From positions 1-38,703 of the forward strand of contig JAIFLC010000014.1 in NCBI GenBank assembly GCA_020049295.1: a DNA stretch of 38,703 bases, written 5' to 3'. The notes beneath the pieces are model-generated. The model saw only the letters and a list, made by a program, of their open reading frames with translations. It searched no databases and was not told the origin of the DNA. Of the stretch, positions 1,304-38,703 are shown in pieces. Every line of letters starts with the position of its first letter. Positions within the stretch are counted from its first letter, which is position 1. A program made the translations under genes and the position numbers. The DNA is from Bacteroidota bacterium. Its GTDB lineage: Bacteria; Bacteroidota; Bacteroidia; Bacteroidales; UBA12077.

Positions 1304-3385
1304 ATGAAAAAAATATCCGTTTTGCTTTTAGGATTGGTTTTAATGTTAAATCCAACATTAAGAGCCGATGAGGGAATGTGGCTATTGCCGCTTATTCAAA
1401 AATTAAACATACAGAAAATGCAGGAAATGGGTCTTAAGCTTTCAGCTGAACAGATCTATAGTGTAAACAATACCAGTCTTAAAGATGCCATTGTTATTTT
1501 TGGCAGAGGATGTACCGGTGAAGTTATTTCTGAACAAGGTCTGGTTTTAACTAATCACCACTGTGGTTATGGAGCTATTCAACAACACAGTACTGTACAA
1601 AATGATTATTTAAAAGATGGGTTTTGGGCTATGTCGATGGAAGAAGAAATACCAACACCAGGATTATCTGTGACTTTTTTGGTTAGCATCGAAGATGTAA
1701 CAAGCAAAATAAATGAAGCTATTAAGCCTGAAATGAATGAAGGTGAAAGACAAAAAGCTGCATTTGCTAAAGGTCAGGAACTTACTAAAGAAGCTACTGA
1801 TGGTACAAATTACAGAGCAATTGTTCAGGACTTTTTTGGCGGAAATCAATATTTTATGATGGTTTACGAAGTGTATACTGATGTTAGAATGGTTGGCGCT
1901 CCACCATCATCAATAGGTAAATTCGGTGCTGATACCGACAACTGGATGTGGCCACGCCATACCGGTGATTTTAGTATTTTCCGTATTTATGCCGATAAAG
2001 ACAATAAACCAGCTGCTTACTCTCCAACCAATGTTCCGTATAAACCAAAACATCATTTACCTGTTTCAATAAAAGGTGTTAAAACCGATGATTTTGCTAT
2101 GATATTAGGATACCCAGGAAGCACAGAACGATATATGACTTCATGGGAAGTTGATGAAACAATTAAAATATCAAATGCAAATCGAATTTATATACGTGGT
2201 GTTCGTCAGGAAATTATTTTAGAAGATATGCTAGCTGATCCAGCAGTAAATATTAAATATTCTTCAAAATATTCTGGTTCTACCAACTACTGGAAAAATT
2301 CAATTGGAATGAACAAAGCATTAAAACGCTTAAAAATTTACGATAAGAAAAAAGTTGAAGAAACTGAATTTACCAATTGGGTAAATGCAACACCAGAAAG
2401 AAAAGCAAATTATGGCGAAGCATTAGACCTTATAAGCAAATCTTTAACTACACGTGGTGAGTACATGCATGTAACTCAATATTTATCTGAAGCTTTATTG
2501 AGAGGAACTGAGCTAATGTCAATCGCTTCGAGTGCTTCAAGATTAGAAGAAGCGTTAATATCTGCAAAAGCAGAAGATATTGCAAAAGCCTCACAAATGG
2601 TTAAAAACAGAGCTCATTCGTTCTATAAAGATTACAATGCATCAACAGATCAAAAAGTAGCTAAAGCAATGTTTAAAATTTATGCTCAGAATGTAACTAA
2701 AAATTATCATCCTGAAGTTTATAAAACCATTGAAGCTAAATACAAAAACGATTATAATAAGTTCGTAGATGAACTGTTTGCTAAATCTGTGTTTACCGAC
2801 TCAACTAAGCTTTTCAAGTTCCTTGAGAAACCAACATTAAAAGCATTGCAGAAAGATCCAGCTTTTATTGCTTCGAAATCAATTTATGCGTTATATTCTG
2901 ATCTTCAGAAGAAACTCGAACCTATGTATGATGATTTTGATAAAGGTCATCGTTTGTATGTTGCCGGAATATTAGAAAAAAATGAAGGTAAAGCAATGTA
3001 TCCGGATGCAAACTTTACAATGCGTTTAACTTATGGAACAATAAAAGATTACTATCCTATGGATGCTGTTCATTACGATTATGTTACTACTCTTGATGGT
3101 GTTATGGAAAAAGAAGATCCAGATAATTGGGATGGTAAAATGCCAGTAGCATTCCTTTCTACAAATGACATTACCGGTGGTAACTCTGGTAGTCCTGTAA
3201 TTAATGGTAATGGTGAGTTAATCGGAACTGCTTTCGATGGAAACTGGGAAGCAATGAGTGGCGATATTGTTTTTGAACCCGAACTCCAACGAACAATTAG
3301 TGTTGATATTCGATATACATTATTCATTATCGATAAGTACGCTGGTTGTACCCGACTAATTGACGAAATGACAATCGTACAATAA
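1304..3385 (+). CDS. dpp7: Secreted S46 dipeptidyl-peptidase, DPP7-like
   Basis: Peptidase family S46 releases dipeptides from the N-termini of peptides in the periplasm and feeds amino-acid catabolism. The 693-residue protein starts with a Sec signal peptide (about residues 1-21). The chymotrypsin-like triad is visible: His85/His86 in TNHHCGYG, Asp222 in HTGDFSIF and Ser628 in GGNSGSPV. The residue 18 positions after the catalytic Ser sets S1 specificity in this family. It is Gly646 here (AFDGNWEAMSGD), as in DPP7, which prefers bulky or hydrophobic residues; DPP11, the Asp/Glu-specific enzyme, has Arg at this place. The gene stands alone between a divergent promoter region and a strong terminator, so it is probably monocistronic. 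The family call is very secure; the DPP7 subtype rests on that one position. Confidence 0.95.
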   Translation: MKKISVLLLGLVLMLNPTLRADEGMWLLPLIQKLNIQKMQEMGLKLSAEQIYSVNNTSLKDAIVIFGRGCTGEVISEQGLVLTNHHCGYGAIQQHSTVQNDYLKDGFWAMSMEEEIPTPGLSVTFLVSIEDVTSKINEAIKPEMNEGERQKAAFAKGQELTKEATDGTNYRAIVQDFFGGNQYFMMVYEVYTDVRMVGAPPSSIGKFGADTDNWMWPRHTGDFSIFRIYADKDNKPAAYSPTNVPYKPKHHLPVSIKGVKTDDFAMILGYPGSTERYMTSWEVDETIKISNANRIYIRGVRQEIILEDMLADPAVNIKYSSKYSGSTNYWKNSIGMNKALKRLKIYDKKKVEETEFTNWVNATPERKANYGEALDLISKSLTTRGEYMHVTQYLSEALLRGTELMSIASSASRLEEALISAKAEDIAKASQMVKNRAHSFYKDYNASTDQKVAKAMFKIYAQNVTKNYHPEVYKTIEAKYKNDYNKFVDELFAKSVFTDSTKLFKFLEKPTLKALQKDPAFIASKSIYALYSDLQKKLEPMYDDFDKGHRLYVAGILEKNEGKAMYPDANFTMRLTYGTIKDYYPMDAVHYDYVTTLDGVMEKEDPDNWDGKMPVAFLSTNDITGGNSGSPVINGNGELIGTAFDGNWEAMSGDIVFEPELQRTISVDIRYTLFIIDKYAGCTRLIDEMTIVQ

Positions 3386-7567: not shown

Positions 7568-7617
7568 AATTTCTGGTTTTATATATTTCGAAATCCTGAT
7601 TAAAAAATTGAAGGAAA

Positions 7618-7740
7618 ATGACGCGTCGAGATTTCCTTAGGTTTTCGCTGCAACAATATGTAGTTGTGCTTTTCTCCATAATCTTTATTCGTTTCGAATC
7701 ATTAAGAATAAATGAGAATATGCAGCAAGAGAGTATGTAG
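7618..7740 (+). CDS. Possible 40-aa micro-protein with Tat-like N-terminus
   Basis: An ATG preceded closely by GAAGGAAA opens a 40-codon frame ending in TAG. It starts MTRRDFLRFSLQQ, which resembles the twin-arginine signal S/T-R-R-x-F-L-K, and continues with a short hydrophobic stretch YVVVLFSIIFI. No cargo domain follows, so it could be a small membrane peptide, the remnant of a Tat substrate gene, or chance. It lies between the divergent Usp and asnS genes, upstream of the asnS promoter element. No family is recognised. Confidence 0.25.
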   Translation: MTRRDFLRFSLQQYVVVLFSIIFIRFESLRINENMQQESM

Positions 7741-7841
7741 AATTCGATATAAATTACAACTTTTTAAAGCTAAAATCAAGTGAAATGATTTCTTTTTGGC
7801 AATAAATGTTGGCTGTCTGTTTATTATCGATGTAAAAATAT

Positions 7842-7849
7842 TATTTTTG
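7842..7849 (+). promoter_or_regulatory. -7 promoter element for asnS-rpoN
   Basis: TATTTTTG (TAnnTTTG) lies 27 nt before the asnS ATG at 7876, leaving a leader of about 20 nt. No convincing -33 TTTG is present. Confidence 0.5.
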
Positions 7850-7875
7850 TGCTGATACAAAAGAAATAATGGAAT

Positions 7876-9208
7876 ATGGATATTAGAAGAAGCTTTATTA
7901 AGGATTTATTAAAATCAACCGAAGTAGATAAACCGGTAAATGTAAAAGGTTGGGTAAGAACCAAAAGAGACAACAAACAGATTGCATTTATTGCAATAAA
8001 CGATGGATCGACAATAAATAATATACAGGTTGTATTAAATCTGTCCGATTTCGATGAAAATAAATTTAGATTAATTACTACAGGGTCGAGTTTAAGTGTT
8101 AACGGAACACTTGTTCAATCAATGGGGAAAGGCCAAAGCATTGAAATACAAGCAACTGAAATTGAATTATATGGTACTGCTGATCCAGAAACGTATCCTT
8201 TGCAAAAAAAGGGACATACACTTGAGTTTTTAAGGGAAATTGCCCATTTACGATTCAGAACAAATACCTTTGGTGCAATTTTCAGAATTCGTCATGCTAT
8301 GGCTTTTGCCATTCATAATTATTTTAACGATCATGGATTTTATTATTTACATACTCCCATAATTACCGGATCAGACGCTGAAGGTGCTGGTGAGATGTTC
8401 AGAGTTTCAACACTCGACATTCATAATCTTCCTAAAACAGAAGATGGAAAAATAGATTTTTCTCAGGATTTTTTTGGACACGAAACTAATCTTACGGTTT
8501 CCTTTCAGAGCTGAAAACTCAAACACACCGCGCCACTTAGCAGAATTCTGGATGATAGAACCCGAGATGGCTTTCTATGATATTCAGGATGATATGGATT
8601 TAGCCGAAGATTTTCTGAAATATCTAATTTCATACGCTCTTGATCACTGTAAAGATGATCTTGATTTTTTAAATAATATGTATGACAAAGAATTAATCGA
8701 AAGATTAAAATTTGTAGTAGAAAACAGATTCGAAAGAATTAATTATACCGATGCAATTGAAATTCTCACAAAATCTGGACAAAAGTTTGAGTATCCTGTA
8801 AAATGGGGATCAGATTTACAATCGGAACATGAGCGTTTTCTCGTTGAAAAGCATTTTAAAAAACCGGTAATTGTAACCAATTATCCAAAAGAGATAAAAG
8901 CTTTTTATATGAAACAAAACGATGATGGAAAAACTGTTCGTGCAATGGATGTTTTATTTCCACGTATTGGAGAGATTATTGGTGGATCGCAACGTGAGGA
9001 GATCTACGAAAAACTGGAACAAAGAATGAAAGAAATGAGTATCCCAGAAAAAGAAATGTGGTGGTATCTCGAAACGCGTAAATTTGGAACGGTTCCTCAC
9101 AGCGGTTTTGGATTAGGTTTTGAGCGATTGATTTTATTTGTTACCGGAATGGCTAATATTCGTGATGTAATTCCATTTCCAAGAACACCTAAAAATGCTG
9201 AATTTTAA
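7876..9208 (+). pseudogene. asnS: Asparaginyl-tRNA synthetase, disrupted by an internal ~62-nt deletion
   Basis: AsnRS charges tRNA-Asn with asparagine. The N-terminal part (7876 to about 8501) holds the OB-fold anticodon-binding domain ([18 protein letters not shown]) and the start of the class II catalytic core up to [11 protein letters not shown]. Ser209 is the last normal residue; the frame then reads FQS and stops at 8514. The remaining core resumes one frame over with [21 protein letters not shown] (motif 2), [11 protein letters not shown] and the motif 3 end GFGLGFERL, ending at 9208. Compared with known AsnRS sequences, about 21 residues between TVS and FRAEN are absent, including the conserved GQL...E amino-acid-binding strand and YTFGP. 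This corresponds to a loss of 62 nt at about 8501/8502, which also accounts for the frame change. All other conserved motifs are intact. Either the reference is wrong here or this copy is non-functional. Confidence 0.9.
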
Positions 9209-9234
9209 CTATATTTAGGAATATTTAATTACAG

Positions 9235-10701
9235 ATGTTAAAGCAAAGTTTACAGCAGAAGTTATTACAGAAGCTGTCTCCTCAACAAATTCAGCTCATT
9301 AAGCTATTGGAAATCCCTACCATGCAGCTTGAGCAGAGAATAAAACAGGAGCTTGAGGAGAATCCTTTGCTTGAAGAAGGTGTAAATGAAGACGAAAATA
9401 GTGAGGATGATTCTTTCGACGAGGAAATAAATGAAGACAACCTTAATGACAACAATGACGAATTCTCTCTTGAAGATTATATTAACGAGGAAGATGTTCC
9501 ATCCTATAAATTAGTTGCTAATAATTACTCTAAGGACGAAAAAAAAGAAGAAATTCCATTTACAACAGGAGTTTCTTTTCATGAGCATCTGCAAAATCAA
9601 ATCGGGTTGCGCGATCTTTCTGAAAAGGAACAAATACTTGCCTGGTATCTTATCGGCAACATAGATGACGATGGGTATATTCGTCGTAAATTAGAAGCTA
9701 TAGCCAACGATCTTTCCTTTTCGCAAAATATAGAAACAAACGAGGACGAATTGTTAGAAGTTTTGCGGATTATTCAGGATCTCGATCCGGCAGGCGTTGG
9801 TGCACGAAGCTTACAGGAATGTCTTTTGCTTCAGATTGAACCAAAAAATCAAGATTTACCAGAGATCGCTCTTGCACGAAAAATACTAAAATATTATTTT
9901 TTAGAGTTTACCAAAAAGCATTACGACAAAATAATTACTCGCCTTACTATTTCAGAAGATGATTTAAAGAATGCAGTAAATGAAATTTTAAGACTAAACC
10001 CAAAACCAGGCAGCAGTTATTCTGATTCACAATCCCGGGTTATTCAGACACTTATCCCTGATTTTACTCTTGAAAGCAAAGATGGGCAATTGTTGCTATC
10101 ATTAAACTCTAAAAACGTACCGGATCTTCGTTTAAGTAATGCGTACAATGATCTGATTCAGACTTATACAAAAAACAGCCGCAATGATAGAACAAAGGGC
10201 GAAAAAGAAGCAATAACGTTTGTAAAACAAAAACTCGATTCGGCAAAATGGTTTATCGATGCGATTAAGCAAAGACAAAACACCTTGCTTATAACCATGA
10301 ATGCCATTATCGATTATCAGTACAAATATTTTCTGGATGGGGATGAATCTTACCTCAGGCCTATGATTTTGAAAGATATCGCTGAAAAAACGAATCTTGA
10401 TATTTCAACTATTTCGCGAGTTGCAAATAGCAAATATGTTCAGACACATTTTGGAATTTTTCCATTAAAATATTTCTTTTCAGAAGGATTGCAAACTGAA
10501 TCAGGCGAAGAAGTATCTACCCGTGAAATTAAATCGATACTAAAAGAATGTATTGAAAACGAAAATAAAAAGAAACCACTTACCGATGATCGCTTAACTA
10601 TAATATTAAAAGAAAAAGGTTTTTTAATTGCCCGCAGAACAGTTGCTAAATACCGCGAACAACTCAACATTCCTGTTGCCCGACTAAGAAAAGAATTATA
10701 A
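9235..10701 (+). CDS. rpoN: RNA polymerase sigma-54 factor RpoN
   Basis: Sigma-54 directs RNA polymerase to -24/-12 promoters, which are opened by AAA+ enhancer-binding proteins. The 488 residues show region I (QSLQQKLLQKLSPQQIQLIK, glutamine- and leucine-rich, with EENPLLEE), an acidic region II (about residues 55-90), the core-binding and helix-turn-helix region (LKDIAEKTNLDISTISRVAN) and the C-terminal RpoN box ARRTVAKYREQLN starting at residue 466. The start at 9235 is 26 bases after the end of asnS, and the next gene begins 3 bases after the stop, so the three genes form one transcription unit. No enhancer-binding protein lies in the window. Confidence 0.97.
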   Translation: MLKQSLQQKLLQKLSPQQIQLIKLLEIPTMQLEQRIKQELEENPLLEEGVNEDENSEDDSFDEEINEDNLNDNNDEFSLEDYINEEDVPSYKLVANNYSKDEKKEEIPFTTGVSFHEHLQNQIGLRDLSEKEQILAWYLIGNIDDDGYIRRKLEAIANDLSFSQNIETNEDELLEVLRIIQDLDPAGVGARSLQECLLLQIEPKNQDLPEIALARKILKYYFLEFTKKHYDKIITRLTISEDDLKNAVNEILRLNPKPGSSYSDSQSRVIQTLIPDFTLESKDGQLLLSLNSKNVPDLRLSNAYNDLIQTYTKNSRNDRTKGEKEAITFVKQKLDSAKWFIDAIKQRQNTLLITMNAIIDYQYKYFLDGDESYLRPMILKDIAEKTNLDISTISRVANSKYVQTHFGIFPLKYFFSEGLQTESGEEVSTREIKSILKECIENENKKKPLTDDRLTIILKEKGFLIARRTVAKYREQLNIPVARLRKEL

Positions 10702-14983: not shown

Positions 14984-17900
14984 TTAACGTACAATTGTTA
15001 CAGGTCCTGTAATTGGTTTATAACCTTTTTCATTTGTATGGATTATATAATAGTAGGTACCTGTAGGTAAATCGTTCCCATTTCCAGCTTTTCCATCCCA
15101 TTGTTTATTCGTATCGAGGTTAGAATATCCTGCTTGAATAAACACTTTTATTCCCCATCGAGTAAATACCTGTACCACATTGTTCGGGAAATCATCAATT
15201 CCCTCAATGTTCCAGTAATCATTTATTCCATCTCCATTTGGTGAAAATCCACCGGAGGCAAATACATTTGGAATAAAGTTTATATAAATCGAATCCAACT
15301 CAGCACAATCATCTGCAGTTAAAGCAGACAAATAATACCATCGTGCTACATCAGGAATAAGATCAGTAACTAAAGAGTTAACATTTTGAATACCTGTAAT
15401 TGGTGTCCAAGTGAATGTTGCACTAACAGTAATATTTTGAACCATTCCCACCAATGTATATCTAGACTCAGTTATTTTTACATCAATCGTATCATTTTCT
15501 GGTTCATCATCATCTAAAATACTCAAGCCAACACCTTGTTTTATATTGACAATTTCTTCAAAGGATGTAGTCTGACAGAATTCATTTAATGCAGTATATA
15601 AATAGCCAGATGTAACAAGCGGATCAAAATGAGCAATAAATGGATTAGAAGTAACGATGGAAGTATCCATATAAACCATACTAGCATCAACATCTCTTAT
15701 TTGCCAAATTATAGTATCGACAGCTGAAAGAGTAAATTCAAAATTTATTCCAGTAGTATAAGAACAAATATTATTTGTATCCAAAACATAGGAAATGCTT
15801 ATATCAAAAGCAGGATCCTCAATAATAGCAAGCGTATCGTATTGCTCGCAGCCTCTTTCATCAGTTACAATTAAGGTATATTCACCAACAACAGATAAAT
15901 TCCGTATGGTATCTTCGGTAGATGTATATCCTGCTGGACCAGACCATAAGTACACAAAATCAGGATCTCCACCAGTTACTGTTGGAATTATCCTTCCATT
16001 ACTTAGGGCTGGGTCTTTGGGTGTACTGGTTAAACAATAAATATTCTGAACTTCTGAAGAAACCAGAAATTCTTCAGGAGTTATTATGTCGGCAGTATCT
16101 AAAGCAATACAGCCATTAACATCCTCTACATATATGTAATAGGTTCCTTCAGGCAAATTAATAAATGTAGAATCGGCAAAAGTATTTGCACCTTCATCAA
16201 CAGAATAAATAAACGTTCCAACGCCGGTACCACCAATGGCATGAATTACTATTTCACCCAGATCACTAATATTAACACAATTTCGAACATTGATAATATC
16301 CAAAGAAGTAATAATCAGTTCATCCGGTTGACCGATAGTTATAACAGTATCAATCTGACAACCTGCTTCATCGCTTATAAAAATAGTATCGGTTCCTGCC
16401 CAAACGTCAATAAACAAGTTTGATGTTTGAGTTACTCCCCTAAATTTGTAAGACAAAGTACCCGAGCCGCCGCTTGCATAAACTCTGATTTGGCCTGTAC
16501 TATCGCCGTAACAACCTGAAACATCGGTTATAAATAAAGAGTCAACAATTATCGGTGCAGCATAGGTTATATGTATAAGCGAATCAAGCAATTTTGTACA
16601 TCCATTATCATCACGAACTGCCATTTGATAAAATCCTTCGGTTAAACTATTAAATGCTGAATCTGTCGTAAATGCTCCACCGTCTATTGAATAGTAAAGT
16701 TCTCCAACGCCTCCACTTCCATATACAATAATTTGCCCATCGGTTCCTCCACCAACACAACTTAACAAATTAACTTTTACCGAATCGATAGAAACAGAAT
16801 CTGGTTCAAAAATAATTTCAGGACCCCATATTCTCTCACATCCTACGCTGTCCATAACAGCAATATAAAATGTATCTCCAGGAAGATCAATAAACAATCC
16901 TCCATTATCGAAGTAAGTTGCTCCACTATCAATAGAATATTCTAATGGTCCTTGTCCTCCCAGAGCAGTAATTTGAATAGTTCCGTCATCATCACCCCAA
17001 CAAGTCACATCGGTATGAGTAACAGTTATTTGGATTGAGTCGGGCTGTATAAGTATAATAGTTGTGTCTTTAAAACAACCACTTAAATCACGAATAATAA
17101 CATCATACGTTCCTGCACCAAGATCTTCAAAGACATGACCGCTTGCAAACCAGTCAATACTGTCTAATGTGTACTCAAGGGTTCCTGTACCACCATTAAA
17201 CTCAAGCATAATAACTCCTGTTGAATCTCCATGGCAGGTAATATTTTCAATTGAATCATTCGTTATTTTTATTTCAGGAGGTTCATTGACCACTATAGAA
17301 TCTATAGCAATACAACCATGTGAATCGGTTATTTCAACATAATATGTACCTACGCATAAATCAACTGTATCTCCTGTTGCAATAGGACTACTAAAATCTA
17401 AGCTTGTACTCCATTTGTATGAAGCATATGGTGGTTGACCACCTGAACCTGTTGCTACGGCAGTTGCATCACACAATCCAAAGCAGGATGTTGTTAAACC
17501 TGTAAGAGATAAAACGTGTGAGGTACGAGCATATGGTCCTGATCCGGAATACTCTTTAATAGGTTTATGAATCAATGAATCCTCATATAAAACAGACTCA
17601 AAAATAGCATCTTGGTTAAAATCTGAGAATTTTAGCGTTGCCTCTTCAAGAAATCCATCTGGGCCACTAATATTTAGGGCATCTACAATTCTAATACTCC
17701 AGGCACCATTAGATGGATCTTGACCATGAAGTTGCTTTTTCCAATCTCCAGAAAACGCATATCTTCCGCTAGTAGGGCTACATGTTGAAATTGTTGATAA
17801 AGAAGCTGTATCCAGCGGATCATTATAAAAATTTAACGTTATATTTTGATTAGCTGATGGAAATCCAGTGCAATATGGTTTAAGTTCAACTACCGAATCA

Positions 17901-20900
17901 ACCGGAGATACAAGATATAACCCCAAATCTGCATTATATCTATGACTTGCAATTTTGATATAAACCTCAATATGTGTTGATGTAGAATCAATGTAGAATG
18001 GAGTAGGTTTACCTATTGCAGCTAGTAATTGTGGCAAATAAGTAATCCTCATAGTATCCGTAACATTACTGCAAGGGGCTGTTCCCTGAGCAGTTAAAAC
18101 AAGGTCAACAAATCCGTTTATTAAATCATTAGCACCAGGTGTATATGTTGGATCTATTATATTCGCATCATCAAAAGTGCCATCTCCACCAACGGACGAC
18201 CATGTAATAGAAGGAGTATCTGATGAATCAGCATCCTGAATATAATATGGAGTGCCATAGCATAATAAAGTATCAACACCAGCGTCTGCGGTGGCAGACT
18301 TATGAACCAAAACAGATATGTTATCAGTTCCTTTACATCCATTAATATCAGTTACAGTATAGGTATAATTATATGTACCAGATAACCCTGAGTTAAAAAT
18401 TGGATTCTGAATAGTTGGGTTACTTAACAAAGTTAAGTTTGTTCCTGTCCAAGCATGCGTATATGCAGGAGTTCCACCTAAAGGATTTCCATTAAGGTTA
18501 AGATCTACTGAGGTACAAGTAATCGCTGGATCCGGGGTAATACTGGCTGTTGGATTTGCAAATACCGTTACTGTAATACTTACAGCAGATGTATTATTGC
18601 AATCGCCTTCGAAACGAACATAATACGTAGTTGTTACCGCAGGAGCTGGAATACTTAGGTTTTGACCTGAGCCTACGCTGATTGTAAGGGCTGCATCAGA
18701 ATACCATTCTGCTGTTGCCCCTGTTCCTATTGTTCCGCCTGAATATGACAGGATGATATTAGTAAATATACCCGCACAAAAATTGTTATTATTAACAGCT
18801 GCACTTGTAGGAGCTACTGATTGTGTTTTTATTGTAACGGTTACTGAAGCCGGAGTTGTACTGTTGCAATCACCTTCGAAACGCACATAATACGTCGTGG
18901 TAACTGCAGGAGCTGCTATTACTAAATTTTGGCCTGTACCTACTAGGTTAGTAAAACCTGCATCTGAGTACCATCTCGCTACTGCGCCTGTACCCAAAGT
19001 ACCTCCTACATAACTCAACGTTATCGTTGGAAATGCTCCTGGACAGAAATTGTTATTGTTTACAGTCGCACTTGTTGGCGCTACCGATGCTACCTTTACA
19101 GTAACTGTTAAGTTTGCACAGGTTGTGTTGTTGCAATCGCCTTCGGCACGCACATAATACGTTGTGGTAACTGCCGGAGATACACTTATTGTTGTTCCGC
19201 TTCCAACCGATGTTCCTCCACAACTACCTGTATACCAACGCCATGTTGCATTCGTTCCTAAAGAACCTCCTGTTACGGTTAAGTTTGCTGTACCTCCAGG
19301 ACAGAAATTTGTGTTATCATTCGTAATTCCGGTTGGGGCTGTTGATTGTGTTTTTACTGTTACAGTAACGGAAGGTCCCGTTGTATTGTTACAATCACCT
19401 TCGAATCGAACATAATAGGTAGTTGTTACAGCAGGAGCTGCAATTATTAAATTCTGACCTGAGCCAATATTTGTTGTATAGGTGCCATCAGTATACCATT
19501 CTGCTGTTGCTCCTGTTCCTAATGTTCCTCCAACATAAGACAGAGTGATCGTTGGAAATGCTCCCGGACAGAAATTATTATTGTTTACACTAGCTGTTGT
19601 TGGTGCTATAGAAGCTACCTTAACAGTAATTGTTGTACTAACACAGAGTGTTGTATTGCAATCGCCTTCGGCTCGTACATAATAAGTTGTTGTTACTATA
19701 GGTGATACGCTTATACTTGCTCCGGAACCTGCCGATGTTCCTCCACAACTACCTGTATACCATCGCCAACTAGCACCAGTTCCTAAAGAACCGCCCGTTA
19801 CAGTTAAATTTGCTGTTTGGCCTGGACAAAAATTATTATTATCTGTAGATATTCCAGTGGGAATGGTTGATTGAGTTTTAACGGTTATAGTAATAGAGGC
19901 ACATGTGGTTGTATTACAATCGCCTTCAGCTCTAACATAATACGTTGTGGTTACAGCGGGTGTAACGTTAATACTTGCACCTGTACCTGCAGCAGTACCA
20001 CCACAGCTACCAGTATACCACTGCCAAGTAGCACCACCACCAAGGGATCCTCCCTGCACAGTTAGGGTAGTTGATTGTCCAGGACAGATATTATTTAAGG
20101 TACTATTAATACTTGTTGGGGCTGTTGATGAACTTAAAATAGTAACTGTAATCGATGCTGCAGTTGTATTATTACAATCACCTTCAAAACGCACATAATA
20201 AGTGGTTGTTACTGCAGGTGATGCAATAACTAAGTTTTGTCCTGTTCCTGCAAGAACGGTAAAACCAGCATCTGTATACCAGCGGGCAGTTGCTCCAGTA
20301 CCTAGAGTTCCTCCAACATAACTCAATGTTATATTGGCAAAAGCACCTGGGCAAAAATTATTATGATCTACGCTTGCTGATGTTGGGGCAACAGAAGCTA
20401 CTTTTACTGTCACATTAATATTATCACTTCCGGTACAACCAATATCATCTGTAACAGTATAAGTTAACGCATATGAACCTGATGTTGCATTTGTAAAAGT
20501 AGTGGATTGCGTATTTGTTGGACTTAAAGACGAGGAACCAGCTCCGGTCCAGGCATGGGTAACATATGTTCCTGAACCACCAGCAGGATTTCCATTAAGG
20601 GTTAATCCAACAGAAGGACATGTTGAAGCAGGATCTGGTGTAATACTTGCCGTTGGATTGGTAACTTCAGTAATTGTTACATCAGTACCTTTAATAGTAC
20701 ATCCATTTTCATCAATGGCATAGGTTTCGTAAGTATCATCTTGTAAACCTGTAAATACTCCATCTTCATCATAAGGAGGCCCAGTAGGTATTACTGCTAA
20801 ATCACTTTGTCTAATTAAATAATAATCGATATCTCCTGTTCCACCCGATGCAACCATTGTAATTGTACCATTGTCTGTACCAACACAAGTATTTTTTGAT

Positions 20901-22270
20901 GTAATACTAGTAAAGCTCAGTTCTTCTGGTATATATTCATCACTATCGTAACCCCGAATAAAAATAAGATTTGTGGAAACAAACCCACCTGCTCCGCAAC
21001 CATTTACATCTCTTATAATTACCTGATACCAACCTTGAGAAACTCCGGTTAATACTTTATTTGTTTCTCCAACTAAATCTTCCCAAGTAAGTGATCCAAA
21101 GTTATACTTTTGCCATTGGTACGTATATGGCGCTGTACCGCCTGTGGCGTACGCTTCCAGTTCGGCATCACTTGCATCAGAACAAGACAAGCCAACATTA
21201 ACACCGATAGATTCAGCAATAAATTCCGGTGGAGCTCCAAGGGTATAAGTACTACCAAAAACACTACCAATTGCATCTTCAACTCTTGCGTAATATGAAT
21301 CAGCTGTTAAACCAGTGAATGTTTTTACCACATCGTTTCCTACATAGGTTTGAGTAACCAATGTTCGATTATTTTTTAAAGTATATGTGTATGGTGTAAC
21401 CCCTCCTGAAACGGACATTGTAAATGTTCCATCCGCGCGGTCATGACAGGTAGCACTGGTAATAACAAACGGATAAACAACATAATCTGCCTTGCTTCCA
21501 GCCTTTGTTGCTTTTACCTCAATATTGTTTACAAGAACATTTCTTTTTACATTTTCTGATTTTACATAAACCAAATAGCTTTCACCAACATACTCTAGGT
21601 TTGATGTGTTTTGAAAATCCCACCTATTAACGGTTACGTTGGAGTTTGTCATATTTAATGCTCTAAAACTATCTCCGTTTCCAGTAAAGACATCACAATC
21701 AACATCTTTATTATTAAGATTTAAATCTCCAGCAATTAATTGTATATTTTTTGTGGTTGACAAATCGCTTTCAACAACCCAGGAACCTTTTTCACTATCA
21801 AAATATAAATTGCTGTTAAGTTGTGATTTAATTATTAAGAATGATTCTTTTTCAGCCCTTAAATAAATATCTCCAAAAAACTGATTATCAATATTTTCAT
21901 TAATTGTTACAGAGCCATAAATTTTAATATCTGCTTTTGTAGCTTCTTTAAATAAAAAGGATTTGCTTTTTAGTTCAGCCTTGTAATTGTCAACTTCCCA
22001 GGTAAAATCATTACAAGCAACGCTGCTTTTAATAATTACCTGCTGTCCGTTTTGGGTAAACGAATTATTATTAAAAATTACATTATCGAATTGCGTAGGT
22101 AATGTTGTGCCAGGTTTTCCTCCACTGGTTTCTGACCAATGATTAGGATCGTTCCACATTCCGCCACCATTTACCCAATATCGATTTGCAGCATTACCTA
22201 TTACTGTTATAATCAACATTAATAAAACAGTCAAGGCTTTTATTATTGAATTTCTCATATTATTGAACAT
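14984..22270 (-). CDS. Giant T9SS-secreted SprB-like adhesin with gliding-associated C-terminal domain
   Basis: The 2428-residue protein has an N-terminal signal peptide (MRNSIIKALTVLLMLIITV; the second ATG at 22258 is an equally good start). Residues 30-260 resemble the N-terminal region of other Bacteroidota adhesins (RYWVNGGGMWNDPNHWS). Three SprB-type repeats lie at about 264-537. A PKD/Ig-like domain (538-622), seven tandem Ig-like repeats (623-1236) and a second PKD/Ig-like domain (1237-1323) follow. Next come one more Ig-like domain (to about 1411), a proprotein-convertase P-domain-like module (about 1412-1552, with GAWSIRIVDAL) and seven SprB-type repeats (about 1589-2153). The C-terminal T9SS type B sorting domain (CHU_C/TIGR04131 type, FSPNGDGINDYW to the end) is at 2336-2428. 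It is presumably cell-surface anchored or secreted, for adhesion or gliding. SprF-type gene directly downstream. The gene is intact. Confidence 0.95.
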   Translation of the reverse strand: MFNNMRNSIIKALTVLLMLIITVIGNAANRYWVNGGGMWNDPNHWSETSGGKPGTTLPTQFDNVIFNNNSFTQNGQQVIIKSSVACNDFTWEVDNYKAELKSKSFLFKEATKADIKIYGSVTINENIDNQFFGDIYLRAEKESFLIIKSQLNSNLYFDSEKGSWVVESDLSTTKNIQLIAGDLNLNNKDVDCDVFTGNGDSFRALNMTNSNVTVNRWDFQNTSNLEYVGESYLVYVKSENVKRNVLVNNIEVKATKAGSKADYVVYPFVITSATCHDRADGTFTMSVSGGVTPYTYTLKNNRTLVTQTYVGNDVVKTFTGLTADSYYARVEDAIGSVFGSTYTLGAPPEFIAESIGVNVGLSCSDASDAELEAYATGGTAPYTYQWQKYNFGSLTWEDLVGETNKVLTGVSQGWYQVIIRDVNGCGAGGFVSTNLIFIRGYDSDEYIPEELSFTSITSKNTCVGTDNGTITMVASGGTGDIDYYLIRQSDLAVIPTGPPYDEDGVFTGLQDDTYETYAIDENGCTIKGTDVTITEVTNPTASITPDPASTCPSVGLTLNGNPAGGSGTYVTHAWTGAGSSSLSPTNTQSTTFTNATSGSYALTYTVTDDIGCTGSDNINVTVKVASVAPTSASVDHNNFCPGAFANITLSYVGGTLGTGATARWYTDAGFTVLAGTGQNLVIASPAVTTTYYVRFEGDCNNTTAASITVTILSSSTAPTSINSTLNNICPGQSTTLTVQGGSLGGGATWQWYTGSCGGTAAGTGASINVTPAVTTTYYVRAEGDCNTTTCASITITVKTQSTIPTGISTDNNNFCPGQTANLTVTGGSLGTGASWRWYTGSCGGTSAGSGASISVSPIVTTTYYVRAEGDCNTTLCVSTTITVKVASIAPTTASVNNNNFCPGAFPTITLSYVGGTLGTGATAEWYTDGTYTTNIGSGQNLIIAAPAVTTTYYVRFEGDCNNTTGPSVTVTVKTQSTAPTGITNDNTNFCPGGTANLTVTGGSLGTNATWRWYTGSCGGTSVGSGTTISVSPAVTTTYYVRAEGDCNNTTCANLTVTVKVASVAPTSATVNNNNFCPGAFPTITLSYVGGTLGTGAVARWYSDAGFTNLVGTGQNLVIAAPAVTTTYYVRFEGDCNSTTPASVTVTIKTQSVAPTSAAVNNNNFCAGIFTNIILSYSGGTIGTGATAEWYSDAALTISVGSGQNLSIPAPAVTTTYYVRFEGDCNNTSAVSITVTVFANPTASITPDPAITCTSVDLNLNGNPLGGTPAYTHAWTGTNLTLLSNPTIQNPIFNSGLSGTYNYTYTVTDINGCKGTDNISVLVHKSATADAGVDTLLCYGTPYYIQDADSSDTPSITWSSVGGDGTFDDANIIDPTYTPGANDLINGFVDLVLTAQGTAPCSNVTDTMRITYLPQLLAAIGKPTPFYIDSTSTHIEVYIKIASHRYNADLGLYLVSPVDSVVELKPYCTGFPSANQNITLNFYNDPLDTASLSTISTCSPTSGRYAFSGDWKKQLHGQDPSNGAWSIRIVDALNISGPDGFLEEATLKFSDFNQDAIFESVLYEDSLIHKPIKEYSGSGPYARTSHVLSLTGLTTSCFGLCDATAVATGSGGQPPYASYKWSTSLDFSSPIATGDTVDLCVGTYYVEITDSHGCIAIDSIVVNEPPEIKITNDSIENITCHGDSTGVIMLEFNGGTGTLEYTLDSIDWFASGHVFEDLGAGTYDVIIRDLSGCFKDTTIILIQPDSIQITVTHTDVTCWGDDDGTIQITALGGQGPLEYSIDSGATYFDNGGLFIDLPGDTFYIAVMDSVGCERIWGPEIIFEPDSVSIDSVKVNLLSCVGGGTDGQIIVYGSGGVGELYYSIDGGAFTTDSAFNSLTEGFYQMAVRDDNGCTKLLDSLIHITYAAPIIVDSLFITDVSGCYGDSTGQIRVYASGGSGTLSYKFRGVTQTSNLFIDVWAGTDTIFISDEAGCQIDTVITIGQPDELIITSLDIINVRNCVNISDLGEIVIHAIGGTGVGTFIYSVDEGANTFADSTFINLPEGTYYIYVEDVNGCIALDTADIITPEEFLVSSEVQNIYCLTSTPKDPALSNGRIIPTVTGGDPDFVYLWSGPAGYTSTEDTIRNLSVVGEYTLIVTDERGCEQYDTLAIIEDPAFDISISYVLDTNNICSYTTGINFEFTLSAVDTIIWQIRDVDASMVYMDTSIVTSNPFIAHFDPLVTSGYLYTALNEFCQTTSFEEIVNIKQGVGLSILDDDEPENDTIDVKITESRYTLVGMVQNITVSATFTWTPITGIQNVNSLVTDLIPDVARWYYLSALTADDCAELDSIYINFIPNVFASGGFSPNGDGINDYWNIEGIDDFPNNVVQVFTRWGIKVFIQAGYSNLDTNKQWDGKAGNGNDLPTGTYYYIIHTNEKGYKPITGPVTIVR
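18563..20404 (-). repeat. Seven tandem Ig-like repeat units (pattern A-B-B-A-B-A-A) in the adhesin
   Basis: These are coding repeats at protein residues 623-711, 712-797, 798-883, 884-972, 973-1058, 1059-1147 and 1148-1236. Units of type A are 89 residues (FCPGAF, LSYVGGTLGTGA, VRFEGDCN). Units of type B are 86 residues (WYTGSCGG, VRAEGDCN). All end with the motif AVTTTYYVR or IVTTTYYVR, then EGDCN. DNA identity is clear but the copies differ at many synonymous sites, so this is not a recent perfect duplication. Confidence 0.95.
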
Positions 22271-36266: not shown

Positions 36267-38703
36267 TTATTCTTTTGGTTTTAATGATTGAATAATTGCC
36301 GCATCAACCCAATAAACACTTTGTACCCCATTTTTCGTACTGTTGAAGAATAGATACTTTCCATCCGGAGTAACAACTGGACATAATTCGCCACCTTCAG
36401 TGTTAATTGATAATCCCATATTTATTGATTTACCCCACGAGCCATCCTTTTTGAGAAAACTTACAAAAAGATCATCATCACTATGAAATAAAAGATAGCT
36501 GCCATCAGGCGCAATAAATGGTGTCATTTCATTTTTTTCGGTATTTATCTGTTCTCCAAGATTCACAGGGGTATTATATTTTCCATTTTCAAACCGGGCA
36601 CAAAAAATATCCATCATTCCTTTTCCACCTGCAGCGCTGGAACCAAAATATACATTTCCAGTCCTATCAATTGAAAACTGCCAGTGCATTTCCTGTGCAT
36701 TTATAGTTGGGTCAAACGGATACATCTCCGACCAACCTGTAGTTGTCTTGTCCATAACCCACAGGTTTTCTTTTCTCGATCTGGGTTCCCCCGGCAATGG
36801 TCTGGTTGAAAGAATAAATAATTTTTTACCATCAACAGAAAAGAAAGGAACATCGTCATTTATATCAGCATTAAAGGGAGCTGGTTGTTGGGGTGCTGTC
36901 CAAATGCCGTTAACTCTTTTCATCATAAAAGGACCACCAGTAGAATACGCTGCATCGGGTTTTAAAATCATTGGCTTCCAGTAAACTTCGTTACCATCGG
37001 GTGAAAAAATGGCAGTACTATGTAATCCCCATATTGAAGAAATGATTCCCTGAGCAAAAACCACGGGGGTTTTACCTGGAGGTGTCTGACCAAGGTAATC
37101 GCCACGCAATACCGGGAATTTTATTGGGCTTTGATCTGCTTTATTTTTTAACAGTAATTGTTTTATGGCTTCGAATCCCTTTTCATCAGCAATATTAAAT
37201 GCAGATTGTCCAATTATGTTTCGGCTATTTACATCAGCTCCTTTTTCAATGAGTATCGAAAGAGCTTCAAGTCTGCCATTGAACGTGGCATAGTGCAATG
37301 GAGCCCATCCATTCAAATCCTTTTCGTTTATGTTAAATCCTTTATCAATAAGGGCTGAAACAATCTCCTTGGAACCGCCACTTGCAGCATCGTTTAAAAG
37401 AGTCGGAACTAATTTGAGATCAAATCCGCTTTCTGCGATTACATGAAATAACCGTACCATTCCCTTCTGAACTGCTGAAGCTAAAAGATCTATCATTACA
37501 TCTTTCTGAGTTGGAAGAGTTGCTTTATAATCGAGCAATATTTCAACAACAGGTCTATTACCTCTCCACGCTGCGAGAATGATTGCATTATCGCCAGAAT
37601 TGTCAACTGAGTTTATATCAGCTCCGGCATCGAGCAAAATCTTAATTACTTCGGGCCCTCCACGTTCCCTTGATCCAAGAACAAGAGGAGTTCTTCCGTA
37701 ATCGTCTTTAATTTCAAGATTTGCTCCACTTTTTGCCAAAACAGATACAATATCTTTTATTCCATATTGAGAGGCAAGAAAAGCGATGCTCCTTCTATAT
37801 GATTACGAACAGCAGCATAGTGAAGCGGAGTGCTCAAATCGCTTTCCTGGGCATTCACATCGGCTCCCTTTTCGATTAAGTATTTTTGAACCTCCAGATA
37901 TTTTCCTGAACAAGCTAAGTGCAAAGGTGTGGTACCATTTGCATCTTTTACTTTAACAAGATCATTGTTTTGTTCAACAAGTTCTTTTATTTGATCAAGG
38001 TTTCCGGTTTTTGCTGCTTCTAAAATATCTTGAGCAGGAGTGGTATTATTTGATCTCATTTGTTCAATAAAATCAGCCTTAACCCAATAGGAAGCAGCCT
38101 GACCAGCATTCCATGAGACATAAAAAAAGTATTTTCCATCAGGAGTAACATTTGGACAATTACTCGCTTGGTTAACATTGGCCTTTACAGTAATTGATTT
38201 TGCTACTGTCCAATTACCATCACTTTTAAGGAAACTAATAAAAACTCCCATTTGTTGACCTTGATTTGACGCACGAGCAAATAGCAAATAGTCGCCATTG
38301 GGTGAAATATAGGGTGAACCATCAGAATTGTTAGAATTTATTTTATTGCTTAACTTTTCAGGTTTACTATACTTACCATTCTCATACTTGGAGCAGAATA
38401 TCTCACCAAATTTCTTCCCTTCAGGGTCTTGGGCACCAAAATACAGATTTCCTTTTTTATCAGTTGAAATCTGCCAATGCAGATCAAGCGAATTAACAGC
38501 ATCAATTGGCTTTGGCTCTGACCAGCCATTCCCGTCCCTTGTAGCATACCAAATATTCTCTTTTAAAGTATTTTCACCACCTTTTTTTAAAGGTCTTCGA
38601 GAAACAAAAAAGATCTTACTCCCATCAGGAGAAACAAATGGGCAATCATCATCAAACCCAACTTTTGAAAAGGATGCAAGTTCTGGTTTACTCCACTTAC
38701 CAT
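36267..38703 (-). pseudogene. PD40 - ankyrin - PD40 protein, frameshifted and truncated by the window edge
   Basis: The minus strand is open in one frame from the window edge to the stop at 37757. It encodes a beta-propeller (PD40/WD40-like) with FVSPDGSKIFFVS, YISPNGDYLLFA and NVTPDGKYFFYVS, then ankyrin repeats starting near TTPLHLACSGKYLEVQKYL. At about 37785-37801 the frame changes. Downstream, more ankyrin repeats (for example NGWAPLHYATFNGRLEALS) and a second PD40 propeller (AIFSPDGNEVYWKP to VVTPDGKYLFFN) run to 36267. Ankyrin spacing from TPLHYAAVRNH to YRRSIAFLASQYG is 14 instead of 33 residues, fitting a loss of about 58 nt. No signal peptide is visible because the N-terminus is outside the window. 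Both propellers align along their length, so they are internal duplicates. The piece is probably an envelope or extracellular protein (inference). Confidence 0.8.

Follow-up and report, generated by a model that had tools for sequence, protein, structure and literature searches.

Spurious pseudogenes introduced by genome assembly have been shown in public bacterial genomes; by its own statement, that report did not include metagenome-assembled genomes among those assessed (PMC11017572). A search of the open-licence literature found no paper describing a class of drop-outs of 60-80 nt. The enzyme with which the present locus is to be compared is the bacterial asparaginyl-tRNA synthetase (TIGR00457 / NF003037). 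Both halves of an asnS gene found in the window, the entire 38,703-nt stretch of DNA analysed here, match this family, and the 3' part by itself scores 375 bits, above the TIGR00457 cut-off of 342.6. Unlike the family enzyme, the gene as assembled is without approximately 21 residues and its frame is broken, such that no continuous frame covers the whole TIGR00457 profile; one does so in each of the 10 relatives aligned at the junction. The best named loci for the encoded enzyme were all from Bacteroidales drafts, the top one being a Lentimicrobium draft at 82% identity. The locus occupies positions 7876-9208 of the forward strand and is arranged as follows.

7876 to 8501, forward strand: 5' part of asnS, comprising the anticodon-binding domain and the first part of the catalytic core; matches the NCBIfam asnS profiles to about position 200
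8501/8502, forward strand: junction at which 62 nt of the relatives are absent, with no microhomology measurable against the same-genus relative G002
8502 to 9208, forward strand: 3' part of asnS, comprising the remainder of the catalytic core, in a different frame; matches profile positions 218/220 to the end

The first-pass annotation had proposed an internal loss of about 62 nt, with a frame ending in TVSFQS and the core resuming in a different frame. Alignment to relatives placed the loss at exactly 62 nt, the junction given there as 8501/8502 proved correct, and both frames were seen as described. Beyond the junction the first frame (7876-8514) continues as far as a stop codon at 8512-8514 and ends in TVSFQS, while the core resumes from approximately 8502 and terminates with a stop at 9206-9208; a TTG-started frame of 8474-9208 in the ORF list spans the 3' part. 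Pairwise DNA alignment with the G002 gene gave a single 62-nt gap after position 8501 between flanks of 85% and 82% identity. By BLASTN against the same gene (L083), the match leaves off at 626 and takes up again at 629 of the window gene, against 1436 and 1501 in the relative. The net loss was 62 nt against each of three syntenic relatives (G002, G005 and G019), and the segment was present with an open frame in 10 of 10 relatives. The remainder of the gene was indeed intact, with no further stop or frame break seen away from the junction.

The absent stretch lies just before the FRAE motif and includes the SGQL stretch; it would contribute to the asparagine pocket, next to class II motif 2. 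The loss of about 21 conserved residues, also claimed in the first-pass annotation, was borne out by the comparison with relatives and with solved enzymes. On this conservation the gap is not a matter of chance, since the residues are nearly invariant in the 10 relatives and conserved in 6pqh and 5zg8. Two forms of asnS occur within the genus: a shorter one, with a C-half match of 702 nt (the window, G002, G005, G008, G015 and G019), and a longer one of 753 nt, or approximately 17 more residues (e.g. G006, G012 and G016).

The draft to which the window belongs (as contig C204) comprises 2,962,889 bases in 209 contigs with an estimated completeness of 78.63% and contamination of 2.68%; that it is a metagenome bin is suggested by how fragmented it is and by its relatives. 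G002, by comparison, is assembled in approximately 40 contigs and rated 100% complete. Sampling covered 572,922 bases of the draft in 39 contigs or contig parts, the window included (approximately 19% of the draft, the contigs being picked by number and length and not at random), and 1,614,215 bases of G002. The sampled draft bases contained no N letters and hence no visible scaffold gap. ORFs were called mechanically with a minimum length of 80 aa and compared in both directions at an identity of at least 60%. With 157 G002 ORFs (46,103 aa) as queries, eight gaps of at least 12 nt were found in the draft. Two of these, in frame and of 12 and 18 nt, were taken as natural; the six larger gaps fell in asnS, PFOR, the S46 peptidase gene, pcrA, gdhA and rpsJ. 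The reverse comparison, in which 143 draft ORFs (44,709 aa) served as queries, revealed no such loss in the better assembly. In all, eight clean losses of 62-81 nt were recorded at unrelated places in this one draft.

asnS: 62 nt
PFOR: 64 nt by DNA alignment, 55 by protein comparison
S46 peptidase gene (Dpp7-like), window 1304 to 3385, forward strand: 69 nt, in frame, at 3131/3132 of the asnS contig
LPP20-domain locus: approximately 71 nt
pcrA: 72 nt, in frame, broken up by the DNA alignment into several adjoining gaps
gdhA: 72 nt, in frame (24 residues)
rpsJ: 76 nt
gatE: 81 nt, in frame, lying outside the ORF-comparison sample

Six remain when the two in the window, which was chosen for its asnS finding, are set aside. 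Four of the eight lengths are not divisible by three, so the losses take no account of reading frame. Nor do they respect essentiality: rpsJ and asnS are genes that living cells normally cannot do without, and the sole rpsJ found in the draft is split over two frames that match profile positions 1-28 and 48-99. The 69-nt segment of the S46 peptidase gene is present in all three syntenic relatives compared and in the solved homologue 4xzy, and pcrA is without a stretch that the solved PcrA 1pjr possesses. The gatE loss is a single gap against two same-genus relatives and a split gap against two more distant ones. At the LPP20-domain locus, two adjoining G002 genes (452 and 449 aa) correspond to one frame of 880 aa in the draft. 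The gdhA gap was read from protein comparison and ORFs, the DNA alignment not having spanned the site, and its NCBIfam alignment starts late in the profile, which fits an inner gap or a shorter N terminus alike. The gdhA and LPP20-domain losses are the least certain of the series, and some of the in-frame losses could be natural because the relatives compared are other species with approximately 80% DNA identity.

Two further candidates were left uncounted. A loss of approximately 101 nt in relative G019 adjoins a run of N. Within the window, an ankyrin/PD40 gene (36267-38287, reverse strand) lies in two frames split near 37750, where the intervening bases seem to be present and the break is apparently a shift of one or two bases with no loss of 60-80 nt. 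Elsewhere in the window, positions 18800-20800 of the reverse strand, inside a 2428-aa frame (14984-22270), gave many mutually similar blocks in BLAST comparisons with the relatives' copies. These point to internal repeats, the number of which a short-read assembly may not render reliably.

Microhomology against G002 at the four junctions checked of the eight was 0, 0, 0 and 1 bp, so no repeat explains a natural deletion at these sites, and flanking repeats were dropped as the cause of a real deletion. For the two asnS halves compared with five relatives, dN/dS was 0.038-0.074, against 0.033-0.075 in eight of 10 pairs of intact relatives' genes, the other two pairs being undefined through saturation; the test is a coarse one, many synonymous distances exceeding 1. 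The halves are as constrained as intact copies and selection is unrelaxed.

Taken together, the clustered sizes, the one-sidedness against G002, the frame-blind losses, the involvement of rpsJ and asnS, the lack of repeats at the junctions checked and the unrelaxed selection on asnS argue that its interruption arose in assembling the draft, as one case of a recurring drop-out of 60-80 nt; to this reading we assign a probability of roughly 0.94 on the strength of these sequence comparisons. The first-pass annotation had put forward a consensus or assembly error among its readings, and the seven further losses of the same class, including that in the sole rpsJ found, support it strongly. The missing bases would thus be present in the organism, whose asnS is most likely intact and encodes an ordinary full-length asparaginyl-tRNA synthetase. 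Either during assembly itself or when pieces were joined afterwards, short segments, of 62-81 nt in the eight cases, would have been skipped and their edges fused with no N inserted and, at the junctions checked, no repeat common to both sides. A single technical step may have caused all eight losses, a candidate being the shutting of short coverage gaps or strain bubbles with a gap of zero length; a mixture of strains could be what misled the assembler. Against an artefact, the sampled bases show no scaffold gap, and the lost lengths vary, so that no single k-mer length accounts for all of them.

The best placed of the alternatives, although improbable, is a genuine and very recent deletion that has left asnS a pseudogene, while Asn-tRNA comes from a second asnS or from a non-discriminating AspRS working with an amidotransferase. 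The break is clean in an otherwise intact gene, as such a deletion would have it. A very recent lesion would leave no trace of relaxed selection in the dN/dS test, in which the unrelaxed values nevertheless count against a pseudogene. An alternative route, which the first-pass annotation had entertained, found no support in the draft: no second asnS was found in it, gatA gave no match at E 1e-5 and gatB none over the cut-off, its one match below the cut-off being an archaeal-type GatE. The aspS found is of bacterial type, truncated by the end of its contig. The GatE belongs to the Glu-tRNA(Gln) family and stands beside an intact asnS in relatives. A back-up gene could nonetheless be missing from a draft of this completeness, and because of that incompleteness the absence of such genes is weak evidence by itself; the argument rests on rpsJ and on recurrence, and a pseudogene would not account for the like losses in seven other genes, rpsJ among them. 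The tRNA genes recovered with 150 of 250 candidates scored include none for Asn, but those for Asp, Glu, Gln, Lys, Ile and Trp were missing too, so the lack of a tRNA-Asn carries no weight.

The search for asnS took in 39 genomes, the draft itself and 38 relatives. One strong match each was obtained in 34 of the relatives (that of G004 being partial); of the remaining four, asnS exceeds the family cut-off in G031 and G038, and G009 (78% complete) and G032 (91% complete) gave weaker matches only. gatA exceeded its cut-off in two of the 38 relatives, neither of the same genus, and in 18 more was matched below the cut-off only. Beside its full asnS, G038 carries a second asnS-like frame of 338 aa (contig C159:7880-8779, profile positions 138-450), which may be an AsnRS-like paralogue lacking the anticodon-binding domain.

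Archaeal-type GatE was found over its family cut-off in the draft and in 24 of the 38 Bacteroidales relatives, with one more below the cut-off; among 14 control genomes only the four archaea exceeded it. In the draft, gatE lies on contig C87 (L112:1135-2697), and a GlnRS over its own cut-off is present as well. In the two relatives whose loci were read, a GatD over the cut-off comes after gatE (L275:107-3468 and L276:1393-4795). A review places GatDE only in archaea (PMC8007984). The gatE-gatD pairs in Bacteroidales look like a better lead than the break in asnS and deserve more attention.

Somewhat less probable again than a pseudogene is a mixture of strains in which part of the sampled population truly carries the deletion and the short form became the consensus. 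Drafts of this kind can merge strains, and the estimated contamination would accommodate some mixing. Extended to rpsJ, PFOR, pcrA and the other genes, however, this account would demand many independent deletions, each of them common and two of them in genes that are normally needed. It is very improbable that asnS works as it stands, as a split enzyme or through a recoding event that joins both frames. Each half is an open, well-conserved frame, and the TTG-started frame covers the 3' part, but a change of frame cannot supply the absent conserved residues and the pattern recurs in unrelated genes. No Rfam family exceeded its threshold at 7600-9300, and a structured RNA at the junction was dropped on that result. 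Just as improbable is that the losses are real, in a Bacteroidales population with many deletions of 60-80 nt, those in asnS and rpsJ included, whose segments are supplied at the RNA or protein level, or in DNA from cells no longer growing.

If the interruption is the assembly artefact that we favour, a gene that is broken or shortened in frame cannot be given a biological interpretation in this draft, nor possibly in others produced the same way. Seven losses in approximately 138 kb of compared coding DNA (46,103 aa) amount to about one per 20 kb. Should this rate hold throughout the draft, part of its missing completeness and of its apparent gene losses would be artefactual. The in-frame drop-outs (pcrA, gdhA, gatE and the S46 peptidase gene) are the more deceptive kind because the affected gene still looks whole.

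The closest described counterparts of the window asnS are the spurious pseudogenes of PMC11017572. Metagenome-assembled genomes lie outside the scope of that paper, and the present draft differs further in the recurring loss of blocks of 62-81 nt. The likeness lies in the outcome, for in both cases genes appear broken and the lesion was introduced, here very probably, by the assembly.
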